The notes beneath the pieces were generated by a model. The model ran no database searches. It was not told the origin of the DNA and saw only the letters and a program-made list of their open reading frames with translations. The translations under genes and the position numbers were made by a program. Positions 5,566-37,257 of a stretch of 42,546 nt of DNA are shown piece by piece. How positions within the stretch are numbered: the stretch's first letter is position 1; the number at the start of each line of letters is the position of its first letter. Source of the DNA: a virus; the IMG/VR virus record IMGVR_UViG_3300013126_002960, positions 1 through 42,546 of that record; one strand, 5' to 3'.

Positions 5566-5592
5566 TGAAAAAACCCCTCGTTAAGAGGGGTT
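5566..5592 (-). terminator. Rho-independent terminator of the pckA operon
   Basis: Minus strand: an 8-bp stem AACCCCTC/GAGGGGTT around a 5-nt loop, followed by TTTTTTC. It overlaps the stop codon of pckA. It is nearly the same hairpin as the one at 733-755. Confidence 0.85.
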
Positions 5593-7072
5593 AATTTTGT
5601 TCTTCAAAAAGTTCGAATAGTTTATCCACTCGTTCTTGTTCCACATCAGGTCTTAGGGTATGAAGGTCAAGGTCTTCAATTCGGTTGGGAATTTTGAGTC
5701 CGTTAAAGTCAAATACTTGTTGTGAATACCTACCGTTGATAACTCCGTTGATGACCTTTCTTGTTATATCAATCGGATATCTTTTTAGGTTTTCGTCGAA
5801 TCCTGTATTGACCAACCACACATTACATCCCGACTCTTGAACCTTTTTCTTAAAGAGATCGACATAATCATCCACCTTTCGTGGAAGGAAGGGAGATCCA
5901 AAACAGGTGGAGAAAACAACGGTTGGTTCGGTAATTCCAACTTCCGTTCCCGCCACTTTTGAGGTATATCCCATCTTAAAAAACCGAGCCGCATCTTCAA
6001 GATCGAGTTTCGAGATGGGAGGTAAGACACCAAAAGCATCGAAAGATAAAAAGAATATGTTTTCAACCTTTTTTCCTTGACCGATTTTATCAACCATATA
6101 CTCTTCGGGTATTTGATCTAATGGATAAGACGCTCGGATGTTTTCTGTGATAGAAGCATCAGAGAAGTCAGGTGTTCCCTCTTCATCAACAACGATGTTT
6201 TCCATCAGGGTGGTATTGATATGTGTAAATCTTGATTCAGAATGAAGGGCTTCCCAAATGATGGGTTCGTTTTCTTGTTTGAGGTTGATTAATTTTGCAT
6301 AACATCCCCCTTCAAAATTAAATACCTCATCATCAAACCAACCATGTTCATCGTCTCCGATAAAGAATTTATCAGGGTCAGAAGAAAGGGTTGTCTTACC
6401 AGTTCCTGAAAGTCCAAAGAAAAGATTCACACCTTTTCCTTTTTTTGTGTTCGCATTTGCCGAACAATGCATCGGAAGAACACCTTCATCAATTAAGATT
6501 GTATTAAGGACTGTAAAGATACTTTTTTTGATTTCACCTGTATAACTGGTTCCTCCAATCAAAATGGTTTTATCTTCAAAATCGATAATTACAAAATTGG
6601 AGTTTTTGACTTCTTCATAGAAGGGTGCCACAAAGTCGGGAGCATGAAGGATTTTCCAACTTGTGAAATAATCTTTCTGTTGTCTAAAATATTGAACCGA
6701 GTTATTGGTCATGTTGTTGAAAAACAGATTTGCCCAAGCGTAGGTCGTGTTCAGTTCAAACAAAGAAAGGTATTTCTCGTTATGACAAAGAGCTCTTGAA
6801 GTTTTATAAGTGGTTGGTGCGTTCTTGAGATAATCTTCCATCATAGATTTCAAGTATTTAAAAGTTTTCCTCGAAATTACTTGGTTGATTTCCCTTGTGG
6901 TATCCACAACTCGATTTACATATTCACCTTCACAGAAATATCGATCTTTGGGAGATCGTCCTGTAAATTTGCCGGTTGGGAAATATAAGATCCCATCTTT
7001 GGTTTGTTTCACACCTTCGGAGAGAGCATATTGATAAAGGTCTTCCGAAAAACAATTATATCGTTTAATCAT
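5591..7072 (-). CDS. pckA: Phosphoenolpyruvate carboxykinase (ATP)
   Basis: 493 aa, close to full length (cellular enzymes have about 530). It converts oxaloacetate plus ATP to PEP, CO2 and ADP. Seen: TGKFTGRSPKDR near residue 32, the kinase-1a P-loop GLSGTGKTTLSSDP near residue 219, and the metal-binding GDDEHGW. The frame is unbroken and key residues are present, so the enzyme looks functional. Its ATG overlaps the stop of the DNA methyltransferase (ATGA), making a two-gene operon with a host-type promoter at 7968-7999 and a terminator at its end. PEPCK is unusual in phages and may redirect host carbon flow during infection. Confidence 0.95.
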   Translation of the reverse strand: MIKRYNCFSEDLYQYALSEGVKQTKDGILYFPTGKFTGRSPKDRYFCEGEYVNRVVDTTREINQVISRKTFKYLKSMMEDYLKNAPTTYKTSRALCHNEKYLSLFELNTTYAWANLFFNNMTNNSVQYFRQQKDYFTSWKILHAPDFVAPFYEEVKNSNFVIIDFEDKTILIGGTSYTGEIKKSIFTVLNTILIDEGVLPMHCSANANTKKGKGVNLFFGLSGTGKTTLSSDPDKFFIGDDEHGWFDDEVFNFEGGCYAKLINLKQENEPIIWEALHSESRFTHINTTLMENIVVDEEGTPDFSDASITENIRASYPLDQIPEEYMVDKIGQGKKVENIFFLSFDAFGVLPPISKLDLEDAARFFKMGYTSKVAGTEVGITEPTVVFSTCFGSPFLPRKVDDYVDLFKKKVQESGCNVWLVNTGFDENLKRYPIDITRKVINGVINGRYSQQVFDFNGLKIPNRIEDLDLHTLRPDVEQERVDKLFELFEEQN

Positions 7073-10142: not shown

Positions 10143-12557
10143 TTATTTCATTAAAAATCCAAGTTCATAAACCAAAGGTCGCATCCGATCTTCCAAATTC
10201 TTGTACATCTGACGGAATTCCTTGAACTCCTCAGAGAAATATTCCTTCCATACAAGTTTAAGTTGCGCATAACCAGCATCCCACGAGTCCAAATGGTTTT
10301 CGTTGTCGGACATGAGTTGTCGAGCCTGAATGGACTTACGAACAAGTTCCGAAGCCTTGTCAAGAACAAGTTTGGCATCAGGAGATAGTTTGTCGTAGAT
10401 ACGTTCTTCACCAAACAACAGGTTATACACATGACGGTTGGGTGAAGTCCTTGCGTCGTTGTATAGACCATCATAACCATTGTCATCTGCAAGTTGCTTC
10501 ATCTCATCCACTGACATCCAAAAGAACTCGTTTTTGATATCCCAAAGTTTGTCTTTGTATGTTACTTGGCGGAGGGAGGATTGATTTGATTTGGACTCGA
10601 AAAGTGAGTAAACCAAGGAGTCATATTTGAATTGTTCATATTGTTCGTGTTCTTCATTTGGTGCTAGATATTCATCATACCAATTGATCCAATTTCCATA
10701 AATTATTCTTCTCGCCGTGAACAAAGCTGTTGATTTGAATACATTTCTACGAGTTACTGATCTACCGTTATCATTGTTTGAGGGTCGACTCAAAAAATAA
10801 ACCTGTTGATTATTAGCTTTACAATTATTATTGTGAGTTATTAGTTCCATAATCATATCCTGGATAACATGTTTTTCTTTATTACCTAATTGAAGAGCGG
10901 ATTTCATAGTAAAAATTTTAGTTTTGATGGTTGACTCATCTTTTACCCATTCATTTGAGCTAATTACGTTATCGGTATTATAAACTTTTTTGATATCTTT
11001 AAATTTTATTTCAGTATCGAATAGATTGAGATCGTTAATATGAAGAATATCATGTTCAAACTTATTTAGTTTACTGTTTTTATTTCCCCAAATAGAAAAG
11101 GTAATAGACCAATCATCAGAAACATCCGAAAAGTTAGATGCTTGAAATAAAAATCCTTTTTCGAATCCAAATTTTTTGAAAAATTCTATCCTGAATTTTT
11201 TATATCCAGATCCTGACATAAATAGAGGAGGTGAGAATACACATATTTTGAAATTATTAAAAATATTAATTTTGAATATTCGAAATAGGAATTGAGCATA
11301 CAAATTTTGTGAGGAGTTTCCCCAGCTTTTTTCTTTCATTTCTCGATTAATCATAGTATCTGATACTCCAGACTTATGTTCCGAATTATTACCCCTAACA
11401 CCAGCAGTTGCGTAAGGTGGATTCATCAACACAATAATCTCCCTTCCAGATTCAATTGCATCCCTCAATCTTTTAGGAAGTTTATCGTAGTCATCATTCA
11501 GAAAGTCATACTGAAACTTGACCGCCTCAGGATTATACTTCATTTGGTTCGCAGTATCGATGTCCGATTGGATTAAGGTTGAAACATACAATTCCTTGAA
11601 TTTGTAGTCACGAGTCAAATTACCTGTGCCCCAAGCCGGATCCCATACCACATACTTCTCTTTCCAATCTTCACCATATACAGATGCAATATATTCGTGA
11701 GCCTTGTCGACCCAAATTGCCGGTGTAAAGAACTCGCCTTGTTTTCTACGGGTTACATCTTCCACTAATCGATCAACGACTGCTGATAATTTGTGTTTTT
11801 GAGATGGAGAGTATGAAGAGGCAAAATGTGCAAAAAAAGATTCGAAACCCTCTCTTGATTTTACGAAAATCTCACCAAATGACTTTGTCACAATACTTTT
11901 GCGTTTCTTTGAGGGATGTAAATAATTTTCTTCAGAGTTAACCAAAATTTGCACAAAAAGATTAGCTCTTTGGTTCGTCGTCAGATCACACTTACCCAAC
12001 ACTTTATTTTCAAAGTAACGGAAAACCTCGGTGATGTTTTTATCAGTAACCAAAACTTTTCGTTGAACATTGTCGGTGAGGTCTTTTACCTTATCGACGC
12101 ATTGTTCGAAATGGTTTGAATCAAAGACAAATGGATTAATATTAGTATCATTAATCAATTTACCCATCAGTTCAATATTTTTGGAGGCAGCGGATGGTGC
12201 AGAAGACCAGTCCAAATCCATATCCAAATATTTGATCACGTCATTCACGTGGAGAGTAAGACATTCATTACGGTCTCCGATGAAGATGGTAGATGGTGGT
12301 ACAATCCCCTTATCGTAGAACTTCTTGATATAGAAAACGGACTGAGCCAAAACTTTGGCTTGTTCCATTTTCGAAGAAAGGTTCAAATCATCTTTGAACT
12401 CCATCAGAACACGGAGTTTGGATGATTTGGAAACACCGAACCCATCACAACCAAATGGAGAAGTGATCTCCATATCCTTAAACTTCTTCAGAAAAGTATG
12501 ACGATAGATGTTTTCAACGTCTTTTTCGTTGATTGATTTTTTCAGGGATTCTGTCAT
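10143..12557 (-). CDS. Large N6-adenine DNA methyltransferase, probable R-M component
   Basis: 804 aa. SAM-binding and catalytic motifs are clear: GEFFTP at 274-279, DPAWGTGNLT at 306-315 and NPPY at 379-382, the order of gamma-class N6-adenine methylases. The N-terminal 110 residues hold LRVLMEFKDD (residues 48-57), which could be the E-x-K of a PD-(D/E)XK-like fold as in type IIG enzymes; this is uncertain. The C-terminal 400 residues presumably contain target recognition. It sits downstream of a T5orf172 protein and a nuclease-like gene, and has its own host-type promoter. Confidence 0.87.
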   Translation of the reverse strand: MTESLKKSINEKDVENIYRHTFLKKFKDMEITSPFGCDGFGVSKSSKLRVLMEFKDDLNLSSKMEQAKVLAQSVFYIKKFYDKGIVPPSTIFIGDRNECLTLHVNDVIKYLDMDLDWSSAPSAASKNIELMGKLINDTNINPFVFDSNHFEQCVDKVKDLTDNVQRKVLVTDKNITEVFRYFENKVLGKCDLTTNQRANLFVQILVNSEENYLHPSKKRKSIVTKSFGEIFVKSREGFESFFAHFASSYSPSQKHKLSAVVDRLVEDVTRRKQGEFFTPAIWVDKAHEYIASVYGEDWKEKYVVWDPAWGTGNLTRDYKFKELYVSTLIQSDIDTANQMKYNPEAVKFQYDFLNDDYDKLPKRLRDAIESGREIIVLMNPPYATAGVRGNNSEHKSGVSDTMINREMKEKSWGNSSQNLYAQFLFRIFKINIFNNFKICVFSPPLFMSGSGYKKFRIEFFKKFGFEKGFLFQASNFSDVSDDWSITFSIWGNKNSKLNKFEHDILHINDLNLFDTEIKFKDIKKVYNTDNVISSNEWVKDESTIKTKIFTMKSALQLGNKEKHVIQDMIMELITHNNNCKANNQQVYFLSRPSNNDNGRSVTRRNVFKSTALFTARRIIYGNWINWYDEYLAPNEEHEQYEQFKYDSLVYSLFESKSNQSSLRQVTYKDKLWDIKNEFFWMSVDEMKQLADDNGYDGLYNDARTSPNRHVYNLLFGEERIYDKLSPDAKLVLDKASELVRKSIQARQLMSDNENHLDSWDAGYAQLKLVWKEYFSEEFKEFRQMYKNLEDRMRPLVYELGFLMK

Positions 12558-14145: not shown

Positions 14146-14176
14146 CGAAGATAGAAAAAATCACCTATAAAACAAA
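14146..14176 (-). promoter_or_regulatory. Bacteroidetes-type promoter for the nuclease-like gene
   Basis: Sense strand: TTTG (14176-14173), a 19-nt spacer, TATCTTCG (14153-14146), one mismatch. The ATG at 14122 follows after 23 nt. It overlaps the 3' end of the dCMP deaminase gene. Confidence 0.5.
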
Positions 14177-14604
14177 ACTTCAACCCCACTTTCTTCGAAC
14201 ATCACTCGTGACCGAGCTGCATGGGCATCCCAATGATCACGGTTACGAGTGGTATCTTCTTTTTTACAATAGATTCGTTTGATACCCGAATTAATAATTC
14301 CCCTACAACAATCAGAACACGGAACGCCACAGGTTAAATACATCGTGCAATCTTTTGTGGATACCCCAATCCGAGCGGCGTTCAATATTGCATTCATCTC
14401 AGCATGAACGACCCAATAATATTTTTCAGGTCGTTCTTGTCTTTCTTGAATATCATCATTGATTCCTCTCGGAAAAGAGTTGTATCCTGTTGAAACAATC
14501 TCATTATCAGTTCCAACAATTACCGCACCGATCTGAGTTCGTTGGTCTTTAGATTTTAGTTTTACGGTTTCAGCAATCTGAAGGAAGTATTCTGTCCAAT
14601 TCAT
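14161..14604 (-). CDS. Deoxycytidylate (dCMP) deaminase
   Basis: 147 aa from the ATG at 14604 (MNWTEYFLQIAETVKLKS), where homology to the family begins; a longer frame from 14643 overlaps the small upstream gene. Zinc-site motifs are intact: HAEMNAILNA and TCGVPCSDCCRGI (HAE...PCxxC). It deaminates dCMP to dUMP and feeds dTMP synthesis, a usual T4-like phage function. TAACATG couples it to the 39-aa ORF upstream; both probably use the promoter at 14746-14777. Confidence 0.92.
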   Translation of the reverse strand: MNWTEYFLQIAETVKLKSKDQRTQIGAVIVGTDNEIVSTGYNSFPRGINDDIQERQERPEKYYWVVHAEMNAILNAARIGVSTKDCTMYLTCGVPCSDCCRGIINSGIKRIYCKKEDTTRNRDHWDAHAARSRVMFEESGVEVLFYR

Positions 14605-14605
14605 G

Positions 14606-14725
14606 TTAGAAATATTTGTCCGCAACCCATTCGGCAAGATCATCTTGTTCCATGTCCAACAACATAGTGTAAACGAGGTCAGGGTCGGACATCTCGATCA
14701 TCATCTTTACATCTTTCTTAGTCAT
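14606..14725 (-). CDS. Tiny acidic ORF (39 aa), hypothetical
   Basis: It reads MTKKDVKMMIEMSDPDLVYT and ends in DDLAEWVADKYF: a helical, acidic peptide. It is supported by a perfect host-type promoter 20 nt upstream and by its stop lying 1 nt before the dCMP deaminase ATG. It may be a leader-coupled small protein; no family is recognised. Confidence 0.65.
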   Translation of the reverse strand: MTKKDVKMMIEMSDPDLVYTMLLDMEQDDLAEWVADKYF

Positions 14726-14745: not shown

Positions 14746-14777
14746 CAAATATACATCGAAGTTCAGATATTTCCAAA
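14746..14777 (-). promoter_or_regulatory. Bacteroidetes-type promoter for the 39-aa ORF and dCMP deaminase
   Basis: Sense strand: TTTG (14777-14774), a 20-nt spacer, TATATTTG (14753-14746), a perfect match. The TTTG lies at the U-tract of the RNA A terminator, so the two units are back to back. Confidence 0.75.
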
Positions 14778-14800
14778 AAAAAAAGGACCCGAAGGTCCTT
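14775..14800 (-). terminator. Terminator of RNA A (UUCG tetraloop)
   Basis: Minus strand: AAGGACC, loop TTCG, GGTCCTT, then ten T. The C(UUCG)G tetraloop makes a very stable hairpin. The same hairpin ends RNA B. Confidence 0.9.
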
Positions 14801-14939
14801 TCGTTAGACCCTTTTTCCACGGGGTGCTTCGTGATGAGATTCGAGGAGTACTCACAGTCCTATACCCACCATGTCTTTCTAAACTCGTCCCAGTACGAAC
14901 GGTGGCAAACTCCTGGTGACCAGTCGACAATCGTCAACA
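14775..14939 (-). ncRNA. Structured small RNA A (new family candidate)
   Basis: About 165 nt, no ORF of note. The 5' core (14938-14884) folds as: P1, a 6-bp hairpin GUUGAC/GUCGAC with loop GAUU; then UGGU pairing with GCCA; then hairpin UUCGU/ACGAG with loop ACUGGG, whose CUGG can pair back to an upstream CCAG, giving a pseudoknot. The 3' half is specific to this copy. A Rho-independent terminator closes it. The promoter at 14943-14972 puts the start at or just before P1. Strand is set by promoter, terminator and neighbours. Not tRNA-like (no acceptor stem, no CCA). Function unknown. Confidence 0.85.
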
Positions 14940-14942
14940 TTA

Positions 14943-14972
14943 TAAAAATAGATTAAATATATATTTTTTCAA
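14943..14972 (-). promoter_or_regulatory. Promoter of RNA A
   Basis: Sense strand: TTG (14972-14970), a 19-nt spacer, TATTTTTA (14950-14943), one mismatch to TAnnTTTG. It sits 4 nt upstream of the first hairpin. Confidence 0.6.
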
Positions 14973-14984
14973 GTTTATTCAAAA

Positions 14985-15007
14985 TAAAAAAGGACCCGAA
15001 GGTCCTT
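14985..15007 (-). terminator. Terminator of RNA B (UUCG tetraloop)
   Basis: Minus strand: AAGGACC, loop TTCG, GGTCCTT, then TTTTTATTTT. Stem and loop are identical to the terminator of RNA A. Confidence 0.9.
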
Positions 15008-15182
15008 CTAATGTGTTTCTCCGTTTACGGACTGAGGTACATTAACCCGAACTAGATTCACCAAGTTCTCGGCCCTGAGCTTGACGGATTATCTCAGTAT
15101 CCGCAACCATTTAACTTTTATTCATCTCGTCTCAGTACGAATAGTTGGTAAGCTTCTGAGAACCAGTCAATCTTCATTGACA
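14985..15182 (-). ncRNA. Structured small RNA B (paralogue of RNA A)
   Basis: About 198 nt. The core (15181-15126) parallels RNA A: P1 is GUCAAU/AUUGAC with loop GAAG; then UGGU with ACCA; then hairpin UUCGU/ACGAG with loop ACUGAG, whose CUGAG can pair with an upstream CUCAG. Compared with RNA A, several P1 pairs and one pseudoknot pair change on both sides, keeping pairing. The 3' half is longer and different: CGGAT/ATCCG hairpin, then UAAUGU/ACAUUA enclosing UCCGU/ACGGA. It ends in the same terminator hairpin as RNA A. Confidence 0.85.
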
Positions 15183-15185
15183 ATA

Positions 15186-15217
15186 CAAATATACATCATT
15201 TATTCTATTTCTCCAAA
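15186..15217 (-). promoter_or_regulatory. Promoter of RNA B
   Basis: Sense strand: TTTG (15217-15214), a 20-nt spacer, TATATTTG (15193-15186), a perfect match. It starts 4 nt before P1 and overlaps the 3' end of the 172-aa gene upstream. Confidence 0.75.
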
Positions 15218-15723
15218 CGGATTCTAATAAATTTCTTATTTTTTTCTTCCGTCAATTCTATTTCAGGTGTCTGCTGTCGGTTCCAAAAAAATCTTGATCT
15301 ATCTGTATCTGTCCCTGAAGTAATAACTGTTAAACCTTTGCGATATAAAGAATAACTTTCTAACGCACAAATAAATTCAATTTCTCCAAGTTGATCGTGA
15401 GGTGCTGAAAAAATTATTCTGTTGTCTTCATGGGTTGGATCGAAAAACTCATCTATTGTTTCGAATACTTCATTAAAATTCTTCGCTATTGAATCATAAA
15501 TCCACACATTGGGAATACCTGTTCTCCATTTTGTATTCAACATTCTGTTGATTGTTTTGATTGTTGTGAGGTCCTCAACATCCGCATCTCCGAATCTCTC
15601 AAGGGTTTGATGTCTAGAAAATAAAACTCTGATTTCTCTTCTTCCTCTTTTGATTGGAGGAAGTTCAAAATTTCTTGCATTATATTCTGATATGATTTTC
15701 TTTAACGTCGAAATTAATTTCAT
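15205..15723 (-). CDS. Hypothetical protein with capsid-targeting-like N-terminus
   Basis: 172 aa. The N-terminus MKLISTLKKIISE|Y resembles a T4 head-targeting peptide cleaved after [I/L]-x-E. The rest (LPPIKRGRREIRVLFSRHQT, then WIYDSIAKNFNEVFETIDEFF and a basic C-terminus) matches no family I know. A TATTTATCAATAAA motif lies 9 nt upstream. I infer a packaged virion protein. Confidence 0.65.
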   Translation of the reverse strand: MKLISTLKKIISEYNARNFELPPIKRGRREIRVLFSRHQTLERFGDADVEDLTTIKTINRMLNTKWRTGIPNVWIYDSIAKNFNEVFETIDEFFDPTHEDNRIIFSAPHDQLGEIEFICALESYSLYRKGLTVITSGTDTDRSRFFWNRQQTPEIELTEEKNKKFIRIRLEK

Positions 15724-27926: not shown

Positions 27927-28100
27927 ATGACAAAATCAAATCAAAAAAAAGGGTGTGATAAATGCAAAAATAAAAATAAACAAACCATCGGTGAATTTAT
28001 AAAACAACCCTCACAAATTGTGGTTTTGGTTTTTGCATCATATCTTCTTTACTGTGGAGTTAAAGAAACATATGATATAATTTCTTGGTTAATCAACTAA
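27927..28100 (+). CDS. Small single-span membrane protein with CxxC
   Basis: 57 aa. N-terminal basic segment MTKSNQKKGCDKCKNKNKQT with a CDKC pair, then a transmembrane helix (SQIVVLVFASYLLYCGV). The C-terminus (YDIISWLIN) overlaps the end of dnaJ by 12 nt. The layout (soluble CxxC head, one helix) could suit a small membrane adaptor; function unknown. Confidence 0.65.
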   Translation: MTKSNQKKGCDKCKNKNKQTIGEFIKQPSQIVVLVFASYLLYCGVKETYDIISWLIN

Positions 28101-29027
28101 TTCATTGTAAAAAAATTCCATCTTTACCAATAGATCACTTTGGTTTGGTTGGTAACCTTTCCCCCTTATTCTTAAGGGGGTTTTTGTTGATCCATTTTTT
28201 GGAACTCTTATTTTCATCTCACCATCAGGGTGGGGTATGATAATGTGAGGATCACTTTTTAATTCAGATGGGTTGAGTTCTTTTGTATAAATTAAATTGG
28301 TTCCCTCAAGTTTAAAATTATCTTGAGGTGTTAAAGTTATAACTCCCAAGATTTCAGAATAAATTCTCAAATTCGGAACAAAATCACCGGCATTGTTCAT
28401 CCTGATTTGCTGACCTTCATTCACATGGTTTGGTAATTTAATTCTAAAGTTTGCAACTTCTCGTTTCACTGCTGATCCACCACAATCATGACAGGGGTTG
28501 ATTAACTGACTACCAGAACCATTGCAGACAGGACATGGTTGTTGTACCCTTTGTTTAAAGAACATACTACCAATCTCTCTAATAATAAATCCCGACGCTC
28601 CACAATGGTCACAAGGTTTTTTATCACCACCTCCACCATTGCAGGTTCCACACATCATATTTCTTGGGTAGTTGATTTCAATTTCATTTCCCAAATACGC
28701 ATCCAACACTCCAACATTGATTGTAATCCTTTGTTGTGGTTTTTGAGGTTGTTGGGGTCTTGCTTGTTGTCTAAAGAAATCCATAAATGGATCAAATCCT
28801 CCACCACCACCTTGACCAGCGAAAGGATTCTTTCTTCTGAAGTCATAATCTTTCCTTTTGTTTTCATCAGAAAGGGTCTCATACGCATTGGATATTTTTT
28901 TAAACATCTCTTCCCCTTCAGGATTTTTGTCGGGATGGTATATTTTAGATAGTTCTCGGTATTTTCTCTTTATAGTGGAAATATCTGCGTTCTCCTCAAC
29001 ACCGAGTATTTGATAAAAATCTTCCAT
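28089..29027 (-). CDS. dnaJ: DnaJ-type co-chaperone (J domain plus zinc fingers)
   Basis: 312 aa, shorter than E. coli DnaJ (376). J domain at residues 1-65 with HPD at 31-33; a Gly/Phe-rich linker (70-80); four CxxC pairs (C126/C129, C139/C142, C165/C168, C179/C182) forming the zinc domain; then the substrate-binding C-terminal domain, which is truncated. It should stimulate host DnaK ATPase and pass clients to it. No phage DnaK is seen, so it must recruit the host's. Its start is 3 nt from a divergent gene. Confidence 0.93.
   Translation of the reverse strand: MEDFYQILGVEENADISTIKRKYRELSKIYHPDKNPEGEEMFKKISNAYETLSDENKRKDYDFRRKNPFAGQGGGGGFDPFMDFFRQQARPQQPQKPQQRITINVGVLDAYLGNEIEINYPRNMMCGTCNGGGGDKKPCDHCGASGFIIREIGSMFFKQRVQQPCPVCNGSGSQLINPCHDCGGSAVKREVANFRIKLPNHVNEGQQIRMNNAGDFVPNLRIYSEILGVITLTPQDNFKLEGTNLIYTKELNPSELKSDPHIIIPHPDGEMKIRVPKNGSTKTPLRIRGKGYQPNQSDLLVKMEFFYNELVD
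28161..28185 (+). terminator. Terminator for the 57-aa gene, inside dnaJ
   Basis: Plus strand: an 8-bp stem CCCCCTTA/TAAGGGGG, loop TTCT, then TTTTTG. It lies within the last codons of the convergent dnaJ gene. Confidence 0.7.
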
Positions 29028-36447: not shown

Positions 36448-37257
36448 TTACAAATAATCAAAAAGAACAGAAGACTCATTACGAAGTTTCCTCAAAGCTT
36501 TCTCTTTGATTTGACGAACACGCTCTTTGGTGAGGGAAAAATCATTTCCAATGTCTTCCAAAGTTCTTGGTGTTCCATAAAGACCAAAATAGTCTTCAAC
36601 GATTTGTTTTTCCCGTTCATCAAGAATAGACATCATCCCGAGCATCTTTGAACGGAGGGTTCCTTTCTCATCGAAAAACTCATCAGGACGAAGAGAATCA
36701 TGGTTTTCAATCAAGTCGATAAGACCGTCCCCTTCATCATTGATATGGTCACTTAAGGAGATGGTAGAAGGAAGGCTGGTGAATTTATCTTCAAGTTCTT
36801 TGATCCCATTCTCCGCTTCTTTTTTTGCCCGATGCAAGTCTTGGACAACATTCACAGGGAGACGGATGGTACGAGCATTTTCATTCAAAGATGCAAGGAT
36901 CGATTGACGAATCCACCATACCGCATAGGAGATAAACCGAAGGTTTTTACTCCAATCAAAATTTTTGATGGCTTTGATCAGTCCGATATTACCCTCGGCA
37001 ATCAAATCAGACATATCAAGACCTTGATTTTGATATTGTTTTGCAACGGTGATTACAAATCGAAGATTACCTTGGATAAGTTCTTCTTCAATTTGTTTGA
37101 CTTCTTTAGGGGAACAAGTCCCACTCAAGATTTTCTGAGCAAGTTCTTTTTCTCGTTGAGGGGTCATCACATCAATTTTGCGAAGATCCTTCAAGTAAGT
37201 TTGGATTTCCTCTTGGTTGATGGAAATGCCAGTTGTTTTAGTTTCAACTTTCTTCAT
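36448..37257 (-). CDS. rpoD: RpoD-type sigma factor (sigma-70 family)
   Basis: 269 aa. Region 1.2 (IQTYLKDLRKIDVMTPQREK), region 2 (GNLRFVITVAKQYQNQGLDM, LIAEGNIGLIKAIKNFD, RFISYAVWWIRQSI), region 3 and region 4 with a helix-turn-helix (TLEDIGNDFSLTKERVRQIK). The length matches the short primary sigma factors of Bacteroidetes (about 287 aa). It should bind core RNA polymerase and direct it to promoters. A phage-borne copy may recognise the late motif or boost host-type promoters. Its ATG overlaps the preceding gene's end by 14 nt. Confidence 0.93.
   Translation of the reverse strand: MKKVETKTTGISINQEEIQTYLKDLRKIDVMTPQREKELAQKILSGTCSPKEVKQIEEELIQGNLRFVITVAKQYQNQGLDMSDLIAEGNIGLIKAIKNFDWSKNLRFISYAVWWIRQSILASLNENARTIRLPVNVVQDLHRAKKEAENGIKELEDKFTSLPSTISLSDHINDEGDGLIDLIENHDSLRPDEFFDEKGTLRSKMLGMMSILDEREKQIVEDYFGLYGTPRTLEDIGNDFSLTKERVRQIKEKALRKLRNESSVLFDYL

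Follow-up and report, generated by a model that had tools for sequence, protein, structure and literature searches.

Two tandem units on the minus strand of a 42.5-kb IMG/VR virus record very probably belong to a genuine family of structured RNA genes. The record, which was analysed over its full length and is called the window here, is described as a large, freshwater-type virus with Bacteroidetes-like hosts. On present evidence, the units appear to represent a new non-coding RNA (ncRNA) family, restricted, as far as searched, to one clade. The best explanation of the whole, somewhat short of probable in our judgement, is that these are two independent ncRNA genes acting in trans through a core docked by a protein, with the 3′ domain conferring specificity or tuning activity.

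Organization of the two RNA units

The window carries genes for a dCMP deaminase, two DNA methyltransferases, an SbcC-like protein, DnaJ (28089-29027, minus strand; J, zinc-finger and C-terminal domains), a sigma factor, lysozyme/SLT/amidase enzymes, and an ATP-type phosphoenolpyruvate carboxykinase (PEPCK; 5591-7072, minus strand; Pfam E 1.7e-142), the last at 75-97% identity across relatives. An 804-aa protein (10143-12557, minus strand) has no family match, is conserved in 39 loci on contigs of up to 380 kb, and is a marker of this jumbo-phage lineage. Relatives' loci were retrieved using the PEPCK and 804-aa proteins as queries. The closest long relative is contig 3300044568_004391 (152 kb; G002 below), which has a T4-like cyanophage-type structural protein.

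The RNA units are flanked by a 172-aa ORF (15205-15723) and a 39-aa ORF, the latter followed by the dCMP deaminase gene. Each unit consists of a core of 73 to 78 nt, a variable 3′ domain and a UUCG terminator of the same sequence.

15193-14984, minus strand: unit B
15186-15216, minus strand: unit B promoter, with TTG at 15216-15214, a 20-nt spacer and the -7 box TATATTTG at 15193-15186
15008-15103, minus strand: unit B 3′ domain, including the stem UUAAUGU/ACAUUAG (15045-15039/15014-15008)
14984-15007, minus strand: unit B terminator, AAGGACC-UUCG-GGUCCUU plus T run
14950-14775, minus strand: unit A
14943-14972, minus strand: possible unit A promoter, with TTG at 14972-14970, a 19-nt spacer and the degenerate -7 box TATTTTTA at 14950-14943
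14801-14865, minus strand: unit A 3′ domain, which has less length than its counterpart in B, bears little resemblance to it and lacks the AAUGU/ACAUU stem
14775-14800, minus strand: unit A terminator, AAGGACC-UUCG-GGUCCUU plus T10
14606-14725, minus strand: 39-aa ORF downstream of the RNA, with its own TATATTTG promoter, whose -7 box ends at 14746
14161-14643, minus strand: dCMP deaminase gene, a conserved neighbour with 91-92% aa identity in RNA-bearing relatives

A preliminary description of this DNA had placed two tandem minus-strand units here, with identical UUCG terminator hairpins and no plausible ORF. All of this is present, and no ORF spans the RNA region on either strand. Its proposal that both units have their own Bacteroidetes-type promoter stands for B but not for A. 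The Bacteroidetes consensus is TAnnTTTG with a -33 TTTG (quoted in PMC2483708). As a sequence motif, the B promoter (TTG-N20-TATATTTG) is of the canonical type, whereas the -7 box of A deviates from TAnnTTTG and gives no match in a strict motif scan. Judged from sequence, the A promoter is weaker or absent. The window encodes a sigma-70 factor (36448-37257, minus strand; regions 1.2, 2 and 4), yet the phage promoters are of the host type.

A strict scan for a promoter and a terminator within 300 nt and no ORF of 40 codons was run on both strands of the window and G002 (194 kb). It returned three places only, unit B and both G002 units, and none in 20 shuffled versions. Unit A is missing from these matches, its -7 box being too degenerate for the strict motif. 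The terminator hairpin is found in T4-like phages too and is not special by itself; within G002 it is confined to the RNA units. With a promoter of its own (degenerate in A), an intrinsic terminator and no ORF, each unit has the predicted features of an independently transcribed phage ncRNA.

A looser promoter/terminator scan gave two additional places in G002. At G002 132730 (minus strand; L233 about 12730), a weak promoter and a terminator without an ORF lie near tRNA genes and may mark a further ncRNA. Eleven tRNA genes occupy one strand of the last 12 kb of G002 (L234 1-11984).

Core fold and covariation

Homologues were found by blastn (word 7) in three other IMG/VR contigs: G002, with tandem copies C and D, and two contigs with a single copy each, L070 (copy E) and 3300042305_000983 (copy F). 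The shared core begins with a 6-bp hairpin (P1), followed by a pseudoknot strand, an outer helix of 7 bp (P2) and an inner helix of 4-5 bp (P3). The pseudoknot strand, lying between P1 and P2, is the pairing partner of the P3 loop (ACUGRG or ACCGAG). Copies A-E were used to build R1, a covariance model of this core.

15104-15181, minus strand: unit B core; R1 73.6 bits, B being among the model-building sequences
15181-15176/15171-15166, minus strand: unit B P1, from covariation
15159-15156/15135-15132, minus strand: unit B pseudoknot, UCAG with loop CUGA, from covariation
15147-15141/15110-15104, minus strand: unit B P2, from covariation
15140-15137/15130-15127, minus strand: unit B P3
14866-14938, minus strand: unit A core; R1 78.7 bits, A being among the model-building sequences
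14938-14933/14928-14923, minus strand: unit A P1, from covariation
14916-14913/14893-14890, minus strand: unit A pseudoknot, CCAG with CUGG, from covariation
14905-14899/14872-14866, minus strand: unit A P2, from covariation
14898-14895/14888-14885, minus strand: unit A P3

P1 reads GUUGAC/GUCGAC in A and GUCAAU/AUUGAC in B, the change that the preliminary description had reported. The loop pseudoknot it proposed is real as well: besides CUGG/CCAG in A and CUGA/UCAG in B, one relative has a third form, CCGA/UCGG. Two of its details did not survive. The conserved core is longer than the 55 nt or so envisaged, and a helix of UGGU with GCCA or ACCA is absent in the relatives. P2 is better supported than that helix, with the variants CCACCGU/AUGGUGG (A), CAACUAU/AUGGUUG (B), and AAUCAU/AUGAUU and UGAUUGU/AUGAUCA (relatives). 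Compensatory changes are seen at P1, P2 and the pseudoknot with the three homologous contigs, and no Rfam family matches; the expectation of a new phage ncRNA family is thus borne out on both counts.

In the model-fitted alignment (20 pairs in five distinct rows), 94% of cells are paired, compared with 23-46% when the partners are slid. Double changes occur at six pairs (zero to two when slid), and the covariation score was reached in 0 of 500 shuffles. A manual structural alignment of four units, with P2 set to the best register per copy, keeps 82 of 84 pairs and has eight double-changed positions (0 of 20,000 shuffles). The shuffle fractions should not be read as strict probabilities, since the sequences are related to one another and the manual alignment was adjusted to the structure by eye. 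The sequences behind the covariation include only four clearly distinct ones, from one narrow clade.

Among the pairs of the manual alignment, seven G.U cells stand against a single A.C, an excess suggesting that the RNA corresponds to the minus strand. This bears on whether the locus might instead be a DNA element (an origin or protein-binding repeats) or chance. Tandem repeats with inverted repeats are also found at replication origins. Here, however, G.U pairs preserve the helices on only one of the strands, the covariation is of the pseudoknot type, and a promoter and terminator frame the repeats; we regard this explanation as very improbable.

The fold is supported by sequence comparison, not by folding energy. 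Single-sequence folding energy shows no excess (z -0.37 and -1.35), on a scale where energy models without pseudoknots cannot fully score the core, and thermodynamic folding fails to pick the core in some copies. Copies of the D type have a competitor of the pseudoknot, a 12-bp pairing of the 5′ core with the 3′ domain (CUGGUCGCCAGG/CCUGGCGAUUAG). A 3′ domain of about 100 nt with a terminal stem is common to B and D-F, and the short copy C has the stem too. The B-type stem is kept in C and D (UUGAUGU/ACAUUAA, UGAUGU/ACAUCG).

Distribution and neighbourhood of the family

R1 scores 73-92 bits on the six copies, a match that is partly by construction. Elsewhere, it gave only hits at E of at least 0.04, both in 34 phage records and 78 dCMP-deaminase loci and in 395 Bacteroidia genomes. 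Eight weak model hits (E 0.045-5; L084, L082, L107, L103, L087, L106, L098 and L311) were examined and are coding DNA. A relaxed DNA pattern run on IMG/VR had more than 119 matches; among the 79 matches listed, R1 found none above chance. The pattern scan recovered homologues in the same three contigs only, and one match, L002, was rejected as lying inside a coding gene. No homologue was found in isolate phages or plasmids. Rfam 15, searched at the gathering score and at E<=10, gave chance matches only (best below-threshold E 0.08). An exact 16-mer had 61 matches in 85,000 genomes, about chance expectation or fewer. These searches agree with the earlier suggestion of a new family. As far as searched, the family appears restricted to a small clade; the contigs are fragments, in which absence is not proof.

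Within this clade, the RNA of D, E and F is 98.4-99.5% identical, compared with 92.5-95.2% for the adjacent dCMP deaminase gene (84-89% at third codon positions). The 200 nt upstream are 54-61% identical. The single copy of L070 carries the upstream flank of the first copy in G002 (95%), which points to expansion or contraction of the array. Arrays may therefore gain and lose units, and so change copy number, through recombination between tandem copies.

Every homologue lies upstream of the 39-aa ORF, which adjoins the RNA in every relative, and of the dCMP deaminase gene; the upstream neighbour differs between relatives. This constant position directly before the two genes is what one would expect of a cis-acting, riboswitch-like attenuator leader with a conditional terminator. 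Short G-rich stretches ahead of the terminator, GGGUCU in A and AAGGUU in C, could also form pairs with the 5′ arm of the terminator. Against a leader, a canonical promoter stands between the last terminator and the 39-aa ORF, the UUCG stem that forms the terminator is very stable, and the candidate anti-terminator has only 5-7 pairs at a position that is not fixed. Moreover, contig 3300020165_000007 has a dCMP deaminase at 86% identity without the RNA, and a leader would not need two complete tandem units. We give the leader explanation little credence.

Proposed mode of action and known phage RNAs

Unpaired core segments contain the invariant letters ACUGGU, GUAC and GAC, which together with the covarying stems give the look of a protein- or ligand-binding RNA. 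We favour action in trans through a bound protein because of this conserved unpaired core and because two terminated units speak against a leader. Taken alone, protein docking is a tentative proposal.

The two genes would produce transcripts of about 160-195 nt belonging to one small structured ncRNA family. B would be transcribed from its host-type Bacteroidetes promoter and A from its degenerate promoter or by read-through, each transcript being ended by its predicted intrinsic terminator. In the fold that covariation supports, the P1 hairpin sits a few bases after the promoter, and P2 encloses and stacks on P3. The pseudoknot joins the P3 loop to the P1-P2 strand, and an A-rich single strand leads back to P2. 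A protein of the phage or of its host could dock in trans on the resulting rigid, conserved core and so be sequestered or recruited in the course of infection. The 3′ domain, differing in length and sequence between copies, may set specificity or tune activity.

Ranked second is antisense action, in which a pair of sRNAs would act in trans on phage or host mRNAs and the core would mainly be a stabilising scaffold. Bacterial sRNAs typically have this size, a promoter of their own and an intrinsic terminator ending in a U tail, and the variable 3′ domains could serve as seed regions. The pairing scans, which also bear on the preliminary description's guess at a regulatory or host-subverting role, showed nothing above chance. 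Duplex energies between A-D and the gene starts in the window and in the 152-kb relative fall within the shuffled-RNA null, in a scan of low power confined to phage targets. Nor does pairing with GOLLD or with any of 13 phage tRNAs rise above the null. Similarity and complementarity to 16S rRNA are at chance for three Bacteroidia targets (L219, a partial fragment, and two nearly complete; p 0.11-0.99). These targets were drawn from other genomes, an RF00177 search of four Bacteroidetes MAGs having given no 16S. Overall, antisense action seems unlikely. A 16S rRNA mimic (GUACUGAGAC, AGGAGUUUG) was rejected as being at chance level against shuffles.

More speculatively, protein docking could define a new kind of RNA effector in phages, in which the pseudoknot core docks one host protein and an exchangeable 3′ domain redirects it. 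That domain would be diversified by tandem duplication and recombination, in T4-superfamily jumbo phages that also carry GOLLD. We consider this extended proposal a long shot.

A role in defence or counter-defence, as a type III toxin-antitoxin RNA, an AbiF-type RNA or an RNA anti-CRISPR, would suit a small, pseudoknotted, tandem RNA borne by a phage, and such RNAs exist (PMC10651486; PMC12373285). However, no toxin or Abi-like partner adjoins the units, the upstream neighbour is not conserved, and the RNA model, as distinct from a CRISPR-repeat comparison, had no match in the 395 Bacteroidia genomes. A ToxI-like RNA is also small, pseudoknotted and placed between promoter and terminator, but here there is no array of ~35-nt repeats, and the neighbours are the 39-aa ORF and dCMP deaminase rather than a toxin gene. 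Racrs, which are solitary CRISPR repeats (PMC10651486), are small phage-encoded RNAs as well. No CRISPR-repeat shape was seen in the present RNA. A defence role is improbable.

T4 RNAs C and D likewise form a set of two small, stable RNAs in a phage, with a function that is not understood. They belong to a cluster of tRNA genes, and their maturation starts from tRNA-type precursors. Our phage shares T4-superfamily structural proteins with T4, and its terminator is of the T4-like type. Here, in contrast, each unit is self-terminated with no tRNA near; the sequences were compared by Rfam and BLAST only.

GOLLD (RF02032) is likewise phage-borne, structured and non-coding and is present in the closest relatives of this phage. 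It was found in five of them about 8 kb past PEPCK (260-326 bits). Of the 39 lineage records searched, 19 have it.

L230 (G002), 11346-11746: GOLLD RNA, RF02032 match
L064, 12572-12975: GOLLD RNA, RF02032 match
L066, 13462-13865: GOLLD RNA, RF02032 match
L068, 8866-9266: GOLLD RNA, RF02032 match
L075, 18489-18889: GOLLD RNA, RF02032 match

The GOLLD covariance model has no match in the window; by the spacing in a relative with 97% PEPCK identity, GOLLD probably lies just beyond the left end, by about 0.9 kb. To our knowledge, Bacteroidetes phages have so far yielded few small structured RNAs, and the RNA biology of GOLLD-bearing jumbo phages is unexplored. GOLLD is larger, at >400-800 nt, and forms nanocages (PMC12286853). 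It matches our RNA in neither sequence nor structure and sits elsewhere in the genome. The family described here adds a second, smaller RNA beside GOLLD; its fold is well supported, and its tandem copies carry different 3′ modules. Its size suits direct probing, pull-down and deletion, which makes the role of a phage structural RNA experimentally easy to address. Should the RNA prove to be a protein decoy, it would point to a host target of takeover.
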